From assembly GCF_007559335.1 (NCBI RefSeq), contig NZ_VMBG01000001.1, positions 620,001 through 684,000 on the forward strand: DNA of 64,000 nucleotides. Reading direction: 5' to 3'. Of this stretch, positions 10,524-56,811 are shown in pieces. The position numbers and the translations under genes were made by a program. Source of the stretch: Rariglobus hedericola. GTDB lineage: Bacteria > Verrucomicrobiota > Verrucomicrobiia > Opitutales > Opitutaceae. Within the stretch, counting starts at the first letter, position 1. Each line of letters starts with the position of its first letter. The notes below the pieces were generated by a model. That model saw only the letters and a list, made by a program, of their open reading frames with translations. It was not told where the DNA came from and did no database searches.

Positions 10524-11963
10524 TTAGCCGATGTAACCTTCTTCGCCGTGTTCAGCGGTATCCAGACCGGCCGATTCGACTTCAGCAGTCGGACGAAGGC
10601 CAATGGTGAATTTAACGATGAGGGCAATGATGGCGGTGGCCACGACGCTCCAGACGATGGTCAGGGCGCAGGCTTTGAGCTGGGCCATCACGAGACCTTC
10701 CTTGAGAGGACCGACCACGGAGTTGATCTTCTCGTCGGCAAACACGCCGGTGAGGATCGCACCCATGGTGCCGCCGACGCCGTGCACGCCGAAGGTGTCG
10801 AGCGCGTCATCGTAGCCGAGGATCTTTTTCAGGTAGGAAACCGCGATGAACGGAACGATACCGGCGAGCACGCCGATCAAGACGGCCGAGTTCATGGAAA
10901 CGAAACCGGCGCCGGGGGTGATGACCACCAGACCAGCAACAATACCGGAGCAGAAGCCGAGGACGGAGGGATGGCCCTTGAGGACCCACTCGGCCATACC
11001 CCAGGTGAAACCGGCGATGGCGGCTGCGAGGGTCGTGGTCGCGAAGGCATTGGAGGCGATCGCATCGGCGCCGAGGGCGGAACCGGCGTTGAAGCCATAC
11101 CAGCCGACCCAGAGCATACCGGTGCCGACGGTGCAAAGCACCAAGGAGTGCGGAGGCATCGGGACTTTGCCGAAGCCGTTACGCTTGCCGAGGATGATAC
11201 AGAGAACCAGCGCAGACCAACCCGAGGTCATGTGCACCACGGTGCCACCGGCGAAGTCGATCGCCTTGATGCCGGCGCCGGCGTTAAGGATGCCCGACAT
11301 AAAGCCCGTGCCGCTCCACACCATGTGGGCGAATGGGAAATAGACCGCGAACATCCAGAGCGTCACGAACACGAGGACCGAGATGAACTTCATGCGCTCG
11401 GCGATCGCACCGACGATCAGGGCCGGCGTGATGATGGCGAAGGACAGCTGGAACATCGCCCACATGGAGTCACTGATCCAATAGTAACCGGCGCCGACGT
11501 TGCCTGGCTCCACGCCCTTCAGGAACGCGAAGGTCGTATCACCGATAAAGGCATTGCCGCCACCGAAGGCCAGGCTGTAACCGACAGCCCACCACAGGAT
11601 GGTAACCAGACCGGCGACACCCATACACTGGGCGAGGACGGAGAGAACGTTCTTCTTGCGAACCAAGCCGCCGTAGAAGAGAGCCAAACCGGGTAGCGTC
11701 ATGAAAATGACCAGCGCAGTGCTGACCATCTGCCATGCGTTGTGGCCGGGACCGGGTCCGGGGATCTTCGAAACGACATCCGGCGTGCGCGCCGTGTTGT
11801 TCACGTAGGCCTCGAGATCGGCCAGGCGTTGTTCAACGGTAGGCTCAGCCGGTGCTGCTGGTGCCGCGGGTGCGGCTTCCTGAGCCTGGCTCGTGGTGAG
11901 AGCACAGGCTATTAAAAGAGATGCAAAGATGAGTCGCGCGTAGCGCGAAAAAAGGTGTTTCAT
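10524..11963 (-). CDS. amt: Ammonium transporter (Amt/MEP/Rh), copy 1
   Basis: Trimeric inner-membrane ammonium channel. The 479-residue protein opens with a leader (ARLIFASLLIACALTTSQA), then a short Ala/Pro linker and the helical segment VEQRLADLEAYVNNTART. The eleven-helix Amt fold begins around FMTLPGLALFYGGLVRKKN. The signature DFAGGTVVHMTSGWSALV is present, as are WVGWYGFNAGSA and GYDDALDTFGVHGVGGTMGAILTGVF with the twin-His pore residues. It is followed by glnK on the same strand, so the PII partner is made from the same transcript. About 60% of positions look shared with the second copy just upstream. Confidence 0.95.
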   Translation of the reverse strand: MKHLFSRYARLIFASLLIACALTTSQAQEAAPAAPAAPAEPTVEQRLADLEAYVNNTARTPDVVSKIPGPGPGHNAWQMVSTALVIFMTLPGLALFYGGLVRKKNVLSVLAQCMGVAGLVTILWWAVGYSLAFGGGNAFIGDTTFAFLKGVEPGNVGAGYYWISDSMWAMFQLSFAIITPALIVGAIAERMKFISVLVFVTLWMFAVYFPFAHMVWSGTGFMSGILNAGAGIKAIDFAGGTVVHMTSGWSALVLCIILGKRNGFGKVPMPPHSLVLCTVGTGMLWVGWYGFNAGSALGADAIASNAFATTTLAAAIAGFTWGMAEWVLKGHPSVLGFCSGIVAGLVVITPGAGFVSMNSAVLIGVLAGIVPFIAVSYLKKILGYDDALDTFGVHGVGGTMGAILTGVFADEKINSVVGPLKEGLVMAQLKACALTIVWSVVATAIIALIVKFTIGLRPTAEVESAGLDTAEHGEEGYIG

Positions 11964-12679: not shown

Positions 12680-14149
12680 TTACAGGCTGTAGCCTTCTTC
12701 GTTGTGTTCGCTGATATCGAGGCCGAGTCGCTCGACTTCAGGTGATGCACGAAGTCCCATGACGACCTTGATTGCGTAAGCGATAATGATGGTGGCCACG
12801 ATCGACAGCACGGTAGTGAGGGCGATCGCTTTGAGCTGCTCAATCCACAGCGAACCGTTGGCTACGATATGGGCGAGTCCGTTGGACTTGGCGTAGCCAT
12901 TGGCGACCGTGAGATTGGCGTTAATCGAACTGTTCGCGAGCAAGCCCGTGAGCAACGCGCCCAATGTTCCTCCGACCGCATGCACACCAAATGTATCCAG
13001 AGCGTCATCGTAACCGAAAACCGCCTTCAGCTTCACGCAGAACAGAAACGGAATCGCACCGGCCAGAACACCAATGATGACCGCACCGTTGGCACTGACG
13101 AAGCCTGCGGCCGGCGTGATCACGACCAAGCCCGAAACCGCACCGGAGCACATGCCGAGGATTGAAGATGTTTTCTTAAATACCACGACCTCAAGACCGG
13201 CCCACACCAGTGAGGCGATGGCAGCTGAGAGGGTGGTGGCCAAAAATGCGCCCCCTGCGATGCCGTCGGCAGCCGCGGCAGAACCGGCATTGAAACCATA
13301 CCACCCCACCCAGAGCATACCCGTGCCCACCATGCAAAGCACCATGCTGTGCGGAGCCATGGGCTCTTTTCCGAAACCAATACGCGGCCCGAGGATAATG
13401 CACAGCACCAGTGCCGACCAGCCTGCCGACATATGCACAACGGTGCCTCCGGCGAAATCGATCGCGCGAATCATCGCACTGCCGTTCCACACGCCATTCA
13501 TGAGACCGTCGACGCCCCACACCATGTGGGCCAAGGGAAAATACACCGCAAACATCCAGAGAATCACGAACGCCACGACGGCCGAGAACTTCATGCGCTC
13601 GGCGATCGCACCAATGATCAGCGCGGGAGTGATGATCGCGAACATCATCTGATACATTGACCAGACGGAGTGCGAAATCCACGCCGAGTAATCGAGATTG
13701 GGCGCTGCCCCGACCCCCTCAAGAAAGACGTATTTCAAGCCTCCCAAATAAGGTGTTCCGGGAGCGAAAACCAAACTGTAGCCCACGCCCCACCAGAGCA
13801 GGGTGACCACACCCGTGATGGCCATGCATTGCGCCAGCACGGACAGCACATTTTTGCGACGCACCAAACCACCGTAAAACAACGCCAAGCCGGGGAGCGT
13901 CATGAAGAGAACGAGTGCCGCGCTCGTCATCATCCATCCATTATGGCCTGGACCGGGTCCGGCGACCCTTGAAGCGACATCCGCAGTGCGGGCGCTATTG
14001 TTGATGTAGGCCTCTACGTCAGCGACACGTTGGTCGAGCGTAGGTTCAGGAGGAGTCGCGGATTGCGCCCGGCTCGCAACAGCGAGCGTGCAGGCAATGA
14101 AAAGTGATCGGATGAATACGCGGAAGCCGCGCAAAAAAGTGAGTTGCAT
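12680..14149 (-). CDS. amt: Ammonium transporter (Amt/MEP/Rh), copy 2
   Basis: Second ammonium channel, 489 residues. It has the same design as copy 1: leader (VFIRSLFIACTLAVASRAQS), helical segment LDQRVADVEAYINNSARTADV, then the transmembrane core with FMTLPGLALFYGGLVRRKN, DFAGGTVVHMSAGWSALV, WVGWYGFNAGSA and GYDDALDTFGVHAVGGTLGALLTG. It differs by an inserted loop (LANSSINANLTVANGYAKSN) near the C-terminus that copy 1 lacks. No PII gene follows; the downstream region ends in a terminator. The tandem arrangement suggests a duplication with later specialisation, for instance transport versus sensing. Confidence 0.94.
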   Translation of the reverse strand: MQLTFLRGFRVFIRSLFIACTLAVASRAQSATPPEPTLDQRVADVEAYINNSARTADVASRVAGPGPGHNGWMMTSAALVLFMTLPGLALFYGGLVRRKNVLSVLAQCMAITGVVTLLWWGVGYSLVFAPGTPYLGGLKYVFLEGVGAAPNLDYSAWISHSVWSMYQMMFAIITPALIIGAIAERMKFSAVVAFVILWMFAVYFPLAHMVWGVDGLMNGVWNGSAMIRAIDFAGGTVVHMSAGWSALVLCIILGPRIGFGKEPMAPHSMVLCMVGTGMLWVGWYGFNAGSAAAADGIAGGAFLATTLSAAIASLVWAGLEVVVFKKTSSILGMCSGAVSGLVVITPAAGFVSANGAVIIGVLAGAIPFLFCVKLKAVFGYDDALDTFGVHAVGGTLGALLTGLLANSSINANLTVANGYAKSNGLAHIVANGSLWIEQLKAIALTTVLSIVATIIIAYAIKVVMGLRASPEVERLGLDISEHNEEGYSL

Positions 14150-21663: not shown

Positions 21664-21701
21664 GGCTCAGAGATGCGCGTAGTCCGTGAGGAAGGGAACG
21701 T

Positions 21702-21785
21702 CGGAATTTTTGACAGGATTAACAGGATACAATCTGGGATGAATTCATCCTGCCTTATAGCCCGTCCATCCTGTCCAAAATTCCG
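21702..21785. repeat. Inverted repeat of the GACAGGAT type between gpx and the helicase gene
   Basis: Arms 21702-21719 and 21768-21785 pair 17 of 18 bases. The left arm holds TTGACAGGATTAACAGGAT and the right holds ATCCTGTCC. A perfect 14-bp palindrome GGATGAATTCATCC (21737-21750) is nested inside. It occupies most of the 127-base gap. The look is that of a non-coding REP-like repeat, not a terminator, as no T-run follows on the minus strand. Confidence 0.7.
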
Positions 21786-21790
21786 AATTC

Positions 21791-28529: not shown

Positions 28530-29975
28530 TTACTTCCCTCCTGCGAGGATGTGGAAGTTCGCCATCGAGATGCCGCTGAGCATCGCGCCGATAATTCCAA
28601 GGAAACCCTGGTCTGTTCCTGCGATGTAGAGGTTGTCGATCGCAGTGCGGCCGTCGCGGATTTTTTGCGGCGAACCGTAGATCGCGCCTCCGAGACGGCC
28701 CGTGTATTTGATGATCGTGCGCGGCGTAAACATGTCGGTCGCCAGCGTGGCTTTCGCCAGCGCGTCAGGTGTTGGCAACGCCGGAAGGAAACGCTGCGCG
28801 CTCTTCTGGATTTCGGCATACCAGCGGGCTTTGTCCGCGAGGTATTGGTCTTCCGGCAGGTTCACCCACTGGTCGTAGCTCGCTAGACAGGTGCACCGGA
28901 AAAGCCCTTCAGGTAGATGCGTATCGGGCCCGAAGTCGAAGTTGTTCGGCATACAGATGACGCCGCTGCGCGTATCAACCTGCGCCTCGCTGCGGGCGTA
29001 GGTGAATTTCTCCGAGTCGTTGAAGAAAACGATGGTGTCGTCCCCCCAGCCTAGCGCAGACGGCTCACGATCCAGGACCGTGATCGTCTCCGTGTAGCTG
29101 AGCGCGCCGGTCGGTGCGGAAAGTTGGGAGTTGAGAGATGAGAGTTGAGAGTTCAACAGCGCTTCAGTCTCCGGCGCGCCGACCGTGCTGATGACATGCG
29201 TGGCGGTGACCTCGGTGCCGTCATCAAGGAGCAACGCACTCGCGTAGCCGTCGCGCGTGATGATCTTTTGGACGCCACACTTCATGCGCCGCTCGCCGCC
29301 GGCGGCGCGGTATTTATCGAGGAGCACGCGCAGGATCACGCGCACTCCATCGAGCGGACGGGCAAAGCCTTCCAAGAAGAGTGCCTTGAACATGATCACG
29401 AACTGGCCGAACTCCATATCGTGCTCGGTCGCGCTGCCGTAATACATGACCGGGCAGAACAGCATGTCTTCGAGCAGCGGATCCGTCACGTGGCGACGAA
29501 TCACGGTGCGAGCTGACTCAGGCAACGCGCCGAGCGAGACGTCATCGTAGGTGCGAATGAGCGCGACGAGGCGCCGGAAGCCGTCGATCTGCGCGGGAAA
29601 CTGGCGGGCGACTTCGCTTTCAAAAACAGTGAAATCGTTGGTGAATGTAAGCGACACTTCGCCACGCGGGCCGAACGCGACGCGCGAACGCTTTTGTTCG
29701 CAGAGGGCAAACTCGTCGCGCTCGATGCGCAGCTGGCGAAGGAGCTTGGTGAGCGGCGTGCCTTTGACGCCGGCGCGCACGAAGTTGGTCATCGCGTGTA
29801 GGCCCACGTCGTATTTGCGCCCGTCGATGCTGTAAAAACTGTTGAGTCCACCCGTAACGTTGTGCCGTTCGAAGATGCACACCTTCTTGCCGAAGTGTGC
29901 GAGACGGATGCCGGCGGCGAGGCCGGACATGCCAGCTCCGATGATGGCGACGTCGTAGTGGGTGGAGGTGTTCAT
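28530..29975 (-). CDS. FAD-dependent oxidoreductase, CrtI/RetSat family (copy 2), with an in-frame repeat
   Basis: Probably acts on an acyl-ACP-derived or polyene substrate. The 481-residue protein has the FAD fingerprint VAIIGAGMSGLAAGIRLAHFGKKVCIFERH, then NVTGGLNSFYSIDGRKYDVGLH, and a C-terminal FAD box DNLYIAGTDQGFLGIIGAMLSGISMANF. It is the third gene of a ketosynthase-ACP-oxidoreductase set on the minus strand. A 33-bp repeat inserts the peptide NSQLSSLNSQL after GAPETEALL (about residue 274). A rho-independent terminator lies directly before its start codon. The start ATG at 29975 has no clear ribosome binding site. Confidence 0.78.
   Translation of the reverse strand: MNTSTHYDVAIIGAGMSGLAAGIRLAHFGKKVCIFERHNVTGGLNSFYSIDGRKYDVGLHAMTNFVRAGVKGTPLTKLLRQLRIERDEFALCEQKRSRVAFGPRGEVSLTFTNDFTVFESEVARQFPAQIDGFRRLVALIRTYDDVSLGALPESARTVIRRHVTDPLLEDMLFCPVMYYGSATEHDMEFGQFVIMFKALFLEGFARPLDGVRVILRVLLDKYRAAGGERRMKCGVQKIITRDGYASALLLDDGTEVTATHVISTVGAPETEALLNSQLSSLNSQLSAPTGALSYTETITVLDREPSALGWGDDTIVFFNDSEKFTYARSEAQVDTRSGVICMPNNFDFGPDTHLPEGLFRCTCLASYDQWVNLPEDQYLADKARWYAEIQKSAQRFLPALPTPDALAKATLATDMFTPRTIIKYTGRLGGAIYGSPQKIRDGRTAIDNLYIAGTDQGFLGIIGAMLSGISMANFHILAGGK
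29122..29154 (-). repeat. 33-bp in-frame repeat, copy in the FAD oxidoreductase
   Basis: On the coding strand it begins GAACTCTCAACTCTCATC and ends CTCAACTCCCAACT. It matches the mutS copy at 31 of 33 positions. It is 11 codons long and encodes NSQLSSLNSQL in frame. Internally it is a near-tandem of the unit CTCAACTCTCA. Confidence 0.85.
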
Positions 29976-44598: not shown

Positions 44599-44602
44599 TG
44601 CG

Positions 44603-44680
44603 AAACCTGAAGCGTGAGACTTGAAGCCTGAAACTTCGGGGCGTCTCGTCTTCAGGCTTCAAGTCTCCGCCTTCAGGTTT
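44603..44680. repeat. Long inverted repeat (hairpin) between tmk and holB
   Basis: Arms 44603-44632 and 44651-44680 pair 26 of 30 bases: AAACCTGAAG then four mismatched bases then AGACTTGAAGCCTGAA. The 18-base loop is followed after the right arm by TTTTT (44678-44682). It fills most of the gap and could also serve as a terminator. The word CTTCAGGCTTCAAGTCT is a repeated type, suggesting a REP-like family. Confidence 0.75.
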
Positions 44681-49189: not shown

Positions 49190-51760
49190 ATGTCCTCCGC
49201 TCCCGAGAAACTCACCCCGATGATGCAGCAATACTTCGAGGTGAAGCGCGGACTCCCCAAGGACATCATCCTGATGTTTCGCCTCGGTGACTTCTACGAG
49301 ATGTTCCATGACGACGCCGCCACCGCGTCGAAGATCTGCGGACTCACCCTCACCAAGCGCGGCGAGACCCCCATGGCGGGCATCCCCCACCACGCGGCCG
49401 ACAACTACATCACCAAGCTCCTCGCCGCCGGCAAAAAGATCGCCATCTGCGACCAGGCCGAGCCCGCCAAAGCCGGCAAACTCGTCCGCCGCGCCGTCAC
49501 CCGCATTCTCTCCCCCGGCACCACCCTCGCCGCCAACCAGCTCGACGCCCAGCGCAACCACTACCTCTGCGCCCTCACGCTCGACAAAGCCGGCCTCCAC
49601 GCCGCCTGGCTCGACCTCTCCACCGGCGAATTCCGCGTCGCCACCGACGCCCGCCCCGAAAACCTCCTCCCCGTCCTCACCGCCCTCGACCCCGCCGAAC
49701 TCATCCTCATCGAAGGCGACCTCGAGCGCTGGAAAACCGCCCCCCACGACCAATCCGCCATCCACGCGCTCCACGCCTTCTGCGAACCGCGCCTCTGCAC
49801 CGACCTCCCCGGCTACCACTTCGAAACCGCCGAAGGCCTCCGCACCGTCACCACCATCCTCGGCGTCCTCAACCTCCAAGGCTTCGGCCTCGCCCACGAC
49901 CACCCCGCCCTCGGCCCCGCCGGCGCGCTCGTCCACTACGCCACCGAAAACCTCTGCGCCAAACCGGAAAACCTCCGCTCGCTCCAGGAATACCGCAGCG
50001 CCCGCACGCTCCTCCTCGACCCCGCCACCCTCCGCAACCTCGAGATCTTCCAATCCTCCCGCGGCACCCGCGACGGCTCGCTCCTCTCCGCCATCAACCG
50101 CACCGGCACCGCCGCCGGCGCCCGCCTCCTGGAACGCTGGCTCGCCGCCCCCACGCTCGACCTCGCCGAGATCCAGCGCCGCTCCGCCCTCGTCGGCGAA
50201 TTGCTGGCCGACCCGCTCCACCTCGGCGAACTCCGCGAATGGCTCGATAACGTCCGCGACATCCCGCGCATCCTCGGCCGCCTCCAAAACCGCCTCCGCA
50301 ACCCCCGCGAACTCGGCGGCATCCGCGACACGCTCAGCCAGCTCCCCGCCATCCGCGCGACGCTCAGTGCCTTCGGCCCGAACTCTCAACTCTCATCACT
50401 CAACTCTCAACTAGAGGAGCTGCCTTCTCTCCTGCAGCTCCTGACGTCGGCCCTCGCCGACGCCCTCCCGAACGACCTCGCCGACGGCAACTACATCCGC
50501 GCCGGCCACTGCCCCGAGCTCGACCGCCTCCGCTCGCTCACGACCGACAACAAGACCTGGCTCTCCGACCTCGAACGCGGCGAACAGGAGCGCACCGGCA
50601 TCCGCAGCCTGAAGATCAAATTCACGAACAATTTCGGCTACTACATCGAGATCACCAAGGCCAACCTCCACCTCGTCCCGCCCGACTACATCCGCCGCCA
50701 GACCACCGTGAACGGCGAGCGCTACGTCACCGAAGACCTCCGCACCAAAGAAAAAGAAATCTTCCACGCCGAGGAAAACGCCCTCGCCCGCGAACAAGCC
50801 CTCTTCGCCGCCCTCGTCGCCGCCGTCCTCGACGAATCCATCGCCCTCGCCCGCACCGCCGACACCCTCGCCGAACTCGACGTCCTCGCCGGCTGGTCCG
50901 TCCTCGCCCGCGAGTGGGACTACTGCCAACCTGTCCTCGACGAAGGCGACACCCTCGAAATCATCGAAGGCCGCCACCCCGTCGTGGAGCAGATGCTCAA
51001 GGACCCGGCGGTCGCCGCCGGACGCGGCACCACGAGCTTCGTCCCCAACGACACCCTCCTCTCCTCGACCGACGCCCAACTCGCGCTCATCACCGGCCCC
51101 AACATGGCCGGTAAATCGACCTACATCCGCCAGGTCGCGCTCATCACCCTCCTCGCCCAAGTCGGCTGCTGGACCCCCGCCAAAACCTGCCGCGTCGGCC
51201 TCGTGGACCGCATCTTCTCCCGCGTCGGCGCCAGCGACGACCTCGCCCGCGGCAACTCGACCTTCATGGTCGAGATGAACGAGACCGCCAACATCCTCAA
51301 CAACGCCACCGATCGCTCCCTGATCATCCTGGACGAGATCGGCCGCGGCACCTCGACCTACGACGGCCTGTCCATCGCCTGGGCCGTGGTCGAGCACCTC
51401 CACCGCGACCCCGAACGCGGCCCCCGCACGCTCTTCGCGACGCATTACCAAGAGCTGACCCAACTCGAAAAACACCTCGCCCGCCTCCGCAATTTCTCGG
51501 TGGCGGTAAAAGAGTGGAACGACGAAATCGTCTTCGTCCGCCGAGTGATCCCCGGCGCCGCCGACCGCAGCTACGGCATCCAAGTCGCCCGCCTCGCCGG
51601 TCTGCCGATCACCGTCATCGACCGCGCCAAGGTGATTCTGCAAAAACTAGAATCCGACGACACCAGCGTCGAACTTCCGAGTGCAGCGACGCCCAAAGCC
51701 CGCCCAAAAAAGAAAATCACCGTCACCCCTGAAGATAACGCCCAGCTCAACCTGCTTTAG
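49190..51760 (+). CDS. mutS: DNA mismatch repair protein MutS
   Basis: Recognises mismatches and starts repair with MutL. The 856-residue protein has the mismatch-reading FRLGDFYEMFHDDA (Phe-x-Glu, about residues 26-39). The lever and clamp domains follow, then the ATPase core with Walker A ITGPNMAGKSTYIRQ, DRIFSRVGASDDLARGNSTFMVEM, Walker B LIILDEIGRGTSTYDG and FATHYQELTQLE. A 33-bp repeat adds NSQLSSLNSQL at about residues 398-408 in the lever region, where E. coli MutS has an ordinary loop. Codon use is strongly GC-rich. The last 14 bases overlap the STAND gene on the other strand. Confidence 0.96.
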   Translation: MSSAPEKLTPMMQQYFEVKRGLPKDIILMFRLGDFYEMFHDDAATASKICGLTLTKRGETPMAGIPHHAADNYITKLLAAGKKIAICDQAEPAKAGKLVRRAVTRILSPGTTLAANQLDAQRNHYLCALTLDKAGLHAAWLDLSTGEFRVATDARPENLLPVLTALDPAELILIEGDLERWKTAPHDQSAIHALHAFCEPRLCTDLPGYHFETAEGLRTVTTILGVLNLQGFGLAHDHPALGPAGALVHYATENLCAKPENLRSLQEYRSARTLLLDPATLRNLEIFQSSRGTRDGSLLSAINRTGTAAGARLLERWLAAPTLDLAEIQRRSALVGELLADPLHLGELREWLDNVRDIPRILGRLQNRLRNPRELGGIRDTLSQLPAIRATLSAFGPNSQLSSLNSQLEELPSLLQLLTSALADALPNDLADGNYIRAGHCPELDRLRSLTTDNKTWLSDLERGEQERTGIRSLKIKFTNNFGYYIEITKANLHLVPPDYIRRQTTVNGERYVTEDLRTKEKEIFHAEENALAREQALFAALVAAVLDESIALARTADTLAELDVLAGWSVLAREWDYCQPVLDEGDTLEIIEGRHPVVEQMLKDPAVAAGRGTTSFVPNDTLLSSTDAQLALITGPNMAGKSTYIRQVALITLLAQVGCWTPAKTCRVGLVDRIFSRVGASDDLARGNSTFMVEMNETANILNNATDRSLIILDEIGRGTSTYDGLSIAWAVVEHLHRDPERGPRTLFATHYQELTQLEKHLARLRNFSVAVKEWNDEIVFVRRVIPGAADRSYGIQVARLAGLPITVIDRAKVILQKLESDDTSVELPSAATPKARPKKKITVTPEDNAQLNLL
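50380..50412 (+). repeat. 33-bp in-frame repeat, copy in mutS
   Basis: Starts GAACTCTCAACTCTCATC and continues ACTCAACTCTCAACT; 31 of 33 bases equal the copy in the FAD oxidoreductase, and it is also read as NSQLSSLNSQL. It is AT-rich compared with the surrounding mutS sequence. Confidence 0.88.
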
Positions 51761-56706: not shown

Positions 56707-56811
56707 TAAACGCAAAGACGCGAAGTCGCTAAGACGGATCGATCCAAGGGTCCGGATATAAACACTTGGTTTGCTGGCTCCGAACTTCGCGCCTTCGCGT
56801 CTTTGCGTTTA
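56707..56811. repeat. Inverted repeat of the ACGCAAAGACGCGAAG type
   Basis: Arms 56707-56725 and 56793-56811 are a perfect 19-bp inverted match (TAAACGCAAAGACGCGAAG). It nearly fills the 154-base gap between the convergent VOC and aminotransferase genes. The inner part has looser repeat pieces (TCGCTAAG, AACTTCGCGC). No T-run. Confidence 0.75.

Follow-up and report, generated by a model that had tools for sequence, protein, structure and literature searches.

Small dispersed repeats in Nostoc were reportedly described by Elhai et al. in 2008. Arrays of heptanucleotide units are a kind of bacterial repeat that is already known, under the names STRR and long simple sequence repeats (LSSR), and the arrays described here are of this kind. 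That heptanucleotides are over-represented in bacteria has been on record since 2007; slippage was put forward as the cause, but only as a proposal (as cited in PMC4679880 and PMC4692102). STRR and LSSR, known from Calothrix and from the 2007 survey, resemble the present arrays in their period of 7 nt, their dispersal and their presence in many groups (PMC4679880, PMC4692102). In contrast to these, the present arrays are built of AACTCTC, have exact runs with a preferred length of about 32 nt, often lie in the sense direction in enzymes and, at orthologous sites, show a unit favoured by the species. The GGGAATC arrays of Xanthomonas and the GGGGA(C/T)T arrays of Nostoc are also heptamer arrays with a preference for four units and with close convergent inverted pairs, of which 70 and 75 cases were given for GGGAATC in Xanthomonas (PMC4692102). 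As read from that source, the convergent GGGAATC pairs have the same geometry as the pairs with the purine-rich arm first described below. However, these arrays are G-rich and mostly intergenic, and their four-unit bias was tied to G-quadruplexes (PMC4692102). No G-tracts able to form a G-quadruplex are present in AACTCTC/GAGAGTT, and the array length is nonetheless similar.

The TAACTGA repeats of Beggiatoaceae, Cyanobacteria and Bacteroidetes likewise form heptamer arrays in distant phyla, some of them in ORFs (PMC4679880). A stop is present in every frame of forward TAACTGA, which mostly lies upstream of starts, whereas the sense strand of AACTCTC is open and the arrays are often located in genes. 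Rickettsia palindromic elements are short and lie in frame in unrelated genes, but they are palindromes of about 150 bp with a conserved peptide, compared to arrays of about 32 nt in the present case; no heptamer period is mentioned in the passages cited (PMC10969869). PARCELs are repeated coding sequences found across distant clades with an amphipathic product, but consist of 25-residue repeats in tracts of variable number in ORFs without assigned function (PMC2996958). REPINs and their RAYT transposases provide a parallel for dispersed inverted pairs with hairpin potential, but here the arms are arrays and the Y1_Tnp genes that were read had no neighbouring heptamer arrays (PMC3116915). An exact-sequence search of the literature listed two papers, both judged unrelated by title, and searches of this kind do not establish AACTCTC as undescribed.

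The window, the whole stretch of 64,000 nt that was analysed, contains two copies of a 33-nt sequence, at 29122-29154 on the minus strand and at 50380-50412 on the plus strand. In a repeat search of the window they matched at 31 of 33 bases, as arms of 94% complementarity. Translation of both copies gave the peptide NSQLSSLNSQL, located in an 856-aa MutS and a 481-aa CrtI-like protein. A sequence-only reading had pointed out this match and the common peptide, and both were confirmed by the repeat search and by translation. Its proposal of an 11-codon unit was rejected, as TRF found a period of 7 nt and 4.6 copies of the unit AACTCTC at both places, on opposite strands (Table 1). The same peptide is found in mutS and crtI because near-identical DNA is read in the same phase, and the three frame translations of AACTCTC are rotations of one heptapeptide. 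The shared reading frame is a coincidence of phase, since the ten copies located in Pfam-supported frames of the genome use all three phases and AACTCTC can be read in the sense direction in any frame without meeting a stop. The opposite strand has a stop in every frame.

Table 1. Heptamer arrays of the window, adjoining sequence and host genes.
Feature	Position	Strand	Remarks
AACTCTC x4.6 array	29122..29153	-	in frame in the CrtI-like gene; third unit ATCTCTC, fourth unit AACTCCC
AACTCTC x4.6 array	50381..50412	+	in frame in mutS; third unit ATCACTC
Extra unit-like AACTTTC continuing the crtI array	to 29119	-	beyond the 4.6 copies
TCCG immediately 3' of the crtI array	29117..29120	-	word enriched on both sides of arrays genus-wide
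CrtI-like FAD oxidoreductase, array host	28530..29975	-	Pfam Amino_oxidase; loop with the array varies in length and sequence among relatives
mutS, array host	49190..51760	+	array inside the Pfam MutS_III match; sequence variable, length constant in the genus

Seven matches to (AACTCTC)2 with up to two mismatches were observed in the window, compared to 0.26 expected, and this number was reached in none of 100 shuffles. All seven were at the crtI and mutS places, in agreement with the sequence-only reading, in which no third copy had been found. When the window was scanned for 13 periods at threshold 12, period 7 gave two arrays and the other 12 periods 0 or 1 each; no period-7 arrays were found at this threshold in three Markov shuffles of the window. 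Both copies are single arrays. Folded alone, the crtI copy formed a 5-bp hairpin of -3.0 kcal/mol (z -3.6) and the mutS copy gave -2.2 kcal/mol (z -0.7). Codon quality was ranked with 14 hand-chosen long ORFs of the window as background. In mutS the array was third poorest of 846, and that of crtI, where the stretch scored was off by one codon, was 24th of 471. Poor codons in the array indicate that the DNA, and not the peptide, recurs. Convergence on a protein feature, in which an amphipathic SQLxxLxSQL helix has been selected in both proteins, would fit the leucines spaced 3-4 residues apart and the similar peptide without a clear array in some mutS relatives. It is nevertheless regarded as extremely improbable, being already contradicted by copies outside recognised genes and by the use of all three reading phases, in addition to the poor codons and the period of 7 at the DNA level.

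A genome-wide search had been suggested for the sequence, and a 23-mer of the AACTCTC unit, with up to three mismatches, gave 32 hits in the 4.15-Mb genome of the window (G000), grouped into 21 sites. Nineteen of the 21 sites were read, the remaining two being those without a locus, and each of the 19 contained about four heptamers as judged by eye. Ten arrays were located inside open frames with a Pfam match, all in the sense direction, with phases 0, 1 and 2 used by six, three and one of them. The host frames encode a methyltransferase, an SNF2 helicase (two arrays in one gene), an AMP-binding enzyme, DsbD, the CrtI-like oxidase, MutS, RmuC, an aldehyde dehydrogenase and an outer-membrane efflux protein. 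This supports the claim that the sequence recurs in genes unrelated to each other, on either strand of the chromosome, and preserves the frame in coding DNA. At four sites (L126, L138, L141 and L146) the frame had a Pfam match and the array was before or near the likely start, and five sites (L134, L139, L142, L145 and L152) were without a Pfam match. L145 and L146 form an inverted pair just upstream of a RecR frame, with a single-stranded DNA fold of -27 kcal/mol (z -4.9).

At threshold 12, no period-7 arrays were detected in 400 kb of G000, sampled as 20 stretches at even spacing, though three of the 21 sites lie there. The threshold-12 scan therefore misses weak arrays, and the CACTCGT and CTACTCG arrays of G000 are of the same weak kind. 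In 400 kb of genome G002 the scan detected 12 arrays, and in 200 kb each of G015 and G016 it detected six. A 316-bp array of AGCTCAT/AGCTCAC was observed in G002 (L220:12236-12551), where RVT_1 had 31 matches as well.

Within the genus, the favoured unit tends to differ from species to species, orthologous sites included, though there are exceptions. Hits for AACTCTC numbered 32 in G000, 57 in G004, 8 in G003, 7 in G010, 2 in G011 and 0 in both G001 and G008. For AAATCTC the numbers were 60 in G008, 8 in G011, 3 in G003, 2 each in G001 and G010, 1 in G004 and 0 in G000, the lone hit in G004 really being an AACTCTC array. These hits overlap and are hence not counts of arrays, and the G001 genome is 77% complete. 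At matching positions in the AMP-binding gene and the SNF2 gene, AACTCTC was found in G000 and AAATCTC in G008. In a small, hand-picked set, the mean similarity of arrays was 0.87 for the same species at another site (n=9), 0.74 for the same site in another species (n=13) and 0.74 when neither was shared (n=33). The exceptions are G003 and G010, which hold both AACTCTC and AAATCTC, and G008, which also has AGCTCTC arrays.

Arrays of relatives were compared with G000 in 28 alignments, several of which repeat one region or involve another unit. In five of these an array was present in the relative, none was recognised in G000, and the relative was longer. The extra length was 54 nt at two places in G004, 51 nt in G012 and 24 nt in G008 at one shared place of G000, and 12 nt in G004 at a place where an array of 33 nt is aligned to about 21 nt. 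The five cases all lie in open frames on both sides, and the direction of change (gain or loss) is not polarised. No target-site duplication was recognised by eye at these places, where the flanks have diverged. At other places G000 itself carries another heptamer, CACTCGT/CACTCAT against CTCTCAA of G004 in one case and, between genes, a CTACTCG-like unit against AACTCTC of G010. At one further site three units were found in G004, G000 and G001. At these places the length differs either way. One gene (L443, G000:C1:235001-255000; L360 in G004), which we take to be uvrA from its protein sequence, has several array sites with heptamers differing by species.

The mutS gene was compared at 30 loci, from 53 genomes with a match. 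The aligned stretch was 27 codons long in all ten members of the genus that were read, with or without an array, which speaks against the insertion into mutS that had been proposed. At the 20 loci outside the genus it was 26 codons (11 loci), 27 (five), 29 (two), 33 (one) or 25 (one). Within the genus, the mutS array was of AACTCTC in G000, G004 and G010, of AAATCTC in G011 and AGGTCTC-like in G001; the stretch ended in GTCCCTC units in G003, looked decayed in G009 and G005, and showed no array in G002 and G012. Outside the genus AACTCTC/AGCTCTC was carried by G016 and G015, and no full array was recognised in the rest. In a FastTree tree of 29 mutS sequences, array-less lineages stand between G015/G016 and the genus, which calls for either repeated gains at a single tolerant place or many losses of an old array. 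The mutS arrays of G011 and G000 are out of phase, with an in-register identity of 0.31, and point-by-point conversion of one array into the other was rejected for this reason.

The crtI gene was also compared at 30 loci, from 52 genomes with a match. The units in the loop were AACTCTC in G000, AAATCTC in G008, AGCTCTC in G007 and G006, AGCTCxx in G002 and AAATSCC-like in G001, with labels assigned by eye as at the other orthologous sites. No loop array was recognised by eye in crtI of G010, G011, G009 and G004. It had been suggested that orthologues carrying the peptide with unrelated codons would mark an old protein feature, and on this point the two genes gave a mixed picture. In mutS, G004 and G010 have a like peptide encoded by the same heptamer DNA, and G011 and G001 have other heptamers at the same place; the crtI orthologue of G010, the nearest relative, has nothing resembling the array peptide.

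Some arrays precede likely starts, and some occupy the same sites in relatives; such positions could be explained by selected binding sites for a DNA- or RNA-binding protein, the preferred unit drifting between species. A role as translational sites has been proposed for the TAACTGA arrays (PMC4679880). This explanation is considered very unlikely, as ten of the 19 copies sit inside frames of unrelated Pfam families, crtI of the nearest relative has no array, and the out-of-phase mutS array of G011 could hardly have arisen by point mutation under selection.

Exact (AACTCTC)3 was found in at least 119 stretches of genome contigs, which together cover 861 kb and were chosen for the unit. By their titles, the 119 contigs listed are mostly from metagenome-assembled genomes of Bacteroidales, Fibrobacterota, Verrucomicrobia, Planctomycetota, Acidobacteria, Anaerolineae, Gemmatimonadota, Cyanobacteria and others. 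They contained 266 period-7 arrays, 140 of the selected unit and 126 of other units. For periods 4-6 the numbers were 0, 0 and 3, for periods 8-13 they were 18, 15, 3, 4, 5 and 2, and period 15 gave 7; period 14 gave 63, including several doubled heptamers. A sense ORF of 100 aa or more contained 82 of the 140 AACTCTC arrays and an antisense one 2, the other 56 being in none. The 37 viral stretches chosen for AACTCTC contained 48 arrays (37 sense, 0 antisense, 11 in no ORF). This bias follows from the stops on the other strand and is hence no evidence of mechanism. Within the phylum (AACTCTC)3 was present in 14 of 387 genomes (7 of 197 genera), and neither the permuted (ACCATCT)3 nor its reverse was found in any of the 387. 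Eight of the 14 belong to one genus sharing one orthologous array, at loci that match one named Akkermansia locus with 85-100% identity over 3 kb, and the phylum count is therefore inflated, with fewer independent cases. A class-mate of G000, G083, matched a named Akkermansia contig at 100% over 3,021 bases, which places G000 in the phylum and class of Akkermansia, the phylum being Verrucomicrobiota. The unit matters, yet AACTCTC is not alone: compared to its 37 stretches in viral contigs, the permuted units gave 26 (ATCACTC), 12 (AACCTTC), 1 (ACACTCT) and 1 (ACCATCT). The automatic control of the pattern search was useless for AACTCTC, as the reversed unit gives the same array. Single Bacteroidales arrays at L062, L058 and L116 were located just upstream of TAnnTTTG, presumably the Bacteroidales -7 promoter element.

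The length of the arrays was assessed from exact runs, because lengths that tolerate mismatches are biased against short imperfect arrays. The 128 exact runs of the 119 contigs, selected at a minimum of 21 nt, showed a preferred length, with 61 at 29-34 nt, 42 at 22-27 nt, including a smaller bump at 25 nt (14 runs), and 9 at 36-42 nt. Fifty-four of the 128 start with the rotation AACTCTC and 50 finish in CTCAACT. Polymerase slippage at each site would make the arrays ordinary simple-sequence repeats, in which heptamers are favoured by the polymerase footprint and the unit recurs by chance and bias. Heptanucleotides are indeed over-represented among bacterial simple repeats, with slippage tied to a 7-nt polymerase contact as the proposed cause (PMC4679880, PMC4692102), and long arrays such as that of 316 bp in G002 do exist. 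Slippage should, however, give a steady fall from the minimum length and not a peak at 29-34 nt. One unit scattered over 21 sites, the TCCG flanks enriched in the genus and the fixed geometry of pairs also argue against it, as does the rarity of two of the permuted heptamers, which have an identical base composition; the other two are not rare. We regard slippage as rather unlikely.

In a scan at a lower threshold, adjacent AACTCTC arrays no more than 200 nt apart in the 119 contigs had a marked preference in their arrangement, with 37 pairs in which the purine-rich arm came first, 1 opposite and 14 direct. In a unit-free scan of the cross-phylum, viral and genus sets, all chosen for holding heptamer arrays, the purine-rich arm was first in 44 of 44 inverted AACTCTC pairs and in 44 of 49 pairs of other heptamers, of which 2 were opposite and 3 unclassed. 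Altogether, 88 of 93 inverted pairs had this geometry (2 opposite, 3 unclassed). The word TCCG was present within 12 nt to the left of 36 of 77 arrays of the genus and to the right of 21, with 5.9 expected on each side. It was located in the spacer of the L134 inverted pair and was absent from the enriched flank words of 11 arrays of G008. A candidate leader motif, TTCCGATCC, was rejected as a genome-wide feature, with 5 occurrences in 464 kb compared to a permuted median of 3.

The RVT_1 reverse transcriptase was absent from six of eight genomes, including G000, G004 and G008, which have the most hits, and it was therefore rejected as a required maker of the arrays; G010 had 1 match and G002 had 31. 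Y1_Tnp was present in all eight genomes (21 matches), but no period-7 arrays flanked the Y1_Tnp genes at the eight loci read, and linkage to Y1 transposases was rejected for these. No mobilising gene was identified in the RVT_1 and Y1_Tnp searches of the eight genomes.

The geometry of the pairs and the single period could also be due to a process at breaks or stalled forks in which a purine-rich strand of heptamers is synthesised reiteratively and then copied by fold-back; a single array would be formed without fold-back and an inverted pair with it. Such a process would further explain the replacement in mutS and the net difference of 12 nt between a 33-nt array and the roughly 21 nt aligned to it. 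Without a template, though, it does not account for the use of a single unit at so many places in a genome, and RVT_1, one candidate maker, is missing in the three genomes with most hits. We regard fold-back synthesis as improbable.

The explanation that we favour, with some reservation, is that the two copies of the window belong to a dispersed mini-element of about 4.5 heptamers (about 32 nt) that is copied in trans and in this way reaches tolerant loops and intergenic DNA. Copying in trans is inferred from the species-favoured unit, the presence of one unit at many sites, the TCCG flanks, the preferred length and the fixed geometry of pairs. New elements would arise and spread when array sequence is copied in trans within one genome, and would take the form of single arrays or, judging from the sets searched, of inverted pairs with the purine-rich arm first. 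Single sense arrays could persist in tolerant protein loops because only the pyrimidine-rich strand of AACTCTC is free of stops; a full inverted AACTCTC pair would, as follows from the sequence, end the protein because of the stops on the other strand. In variable protein segments, an array may replace other sequence with no net change in length, as in mutS, or add codons, as in other genes; arrays are in fact present in genes with and without a change in length. The constant length of mutS in the genus counts against spreading of a mini-element, since an inserting element would predict a change; no target-site duplication was recognised and no mobilising gene was identified, which likewise counts against it.

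It is conceivable, though we would not expect it, that all bacterial heptamer arrays are made by a single machinery, so far unrecognised, whose product is about 4.5 units (about 32 nt) long, with the purine-rich arm first when arrays are paired. The four-unit bias of the G-rich arrays would then come from the machinery and not from G-quadruplexes, and proteins such as MutS would be repeatedly rewritten by it. Any mechanism is strongly constrained by the common length and common pair geometry over many units and groups, together with the unit favoured by each species at orthologous sites. These features also make the mechanism testable, and they cast doubt on G-quadruplexes as the source of the four-unit bias. 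Arrays in segments of core proteins are also an easily missed source of loop variation.

Other repeats were observed in the window. An inverted pair at 44602-44680 has a heptamer-like repeat, AAGCCTG/TTCAGGC, which differs in unit from AACTCTC; its 30-nt arms are 90% complementary with 18 nt between them. A second inverted pair, at 56707-56811, has an octamer-like repeat with arms TAAACGCAAAGACGCGAAG... and ...CTTCGCGTCTTTGCGTTTA (27 nt, 93%, 51 nt between). A long quasi-palindrome at 21701-21786 consists of ACAGGATTAACAGGAT and its inverse, in overlapping 50-nt arms of 80% complementarity. A direct repeat of 300 nt with 74% identity, at 11056-11355 and 13257-13556, is located in two long minus-strand ORFs, which are perhaps paralogous genes.
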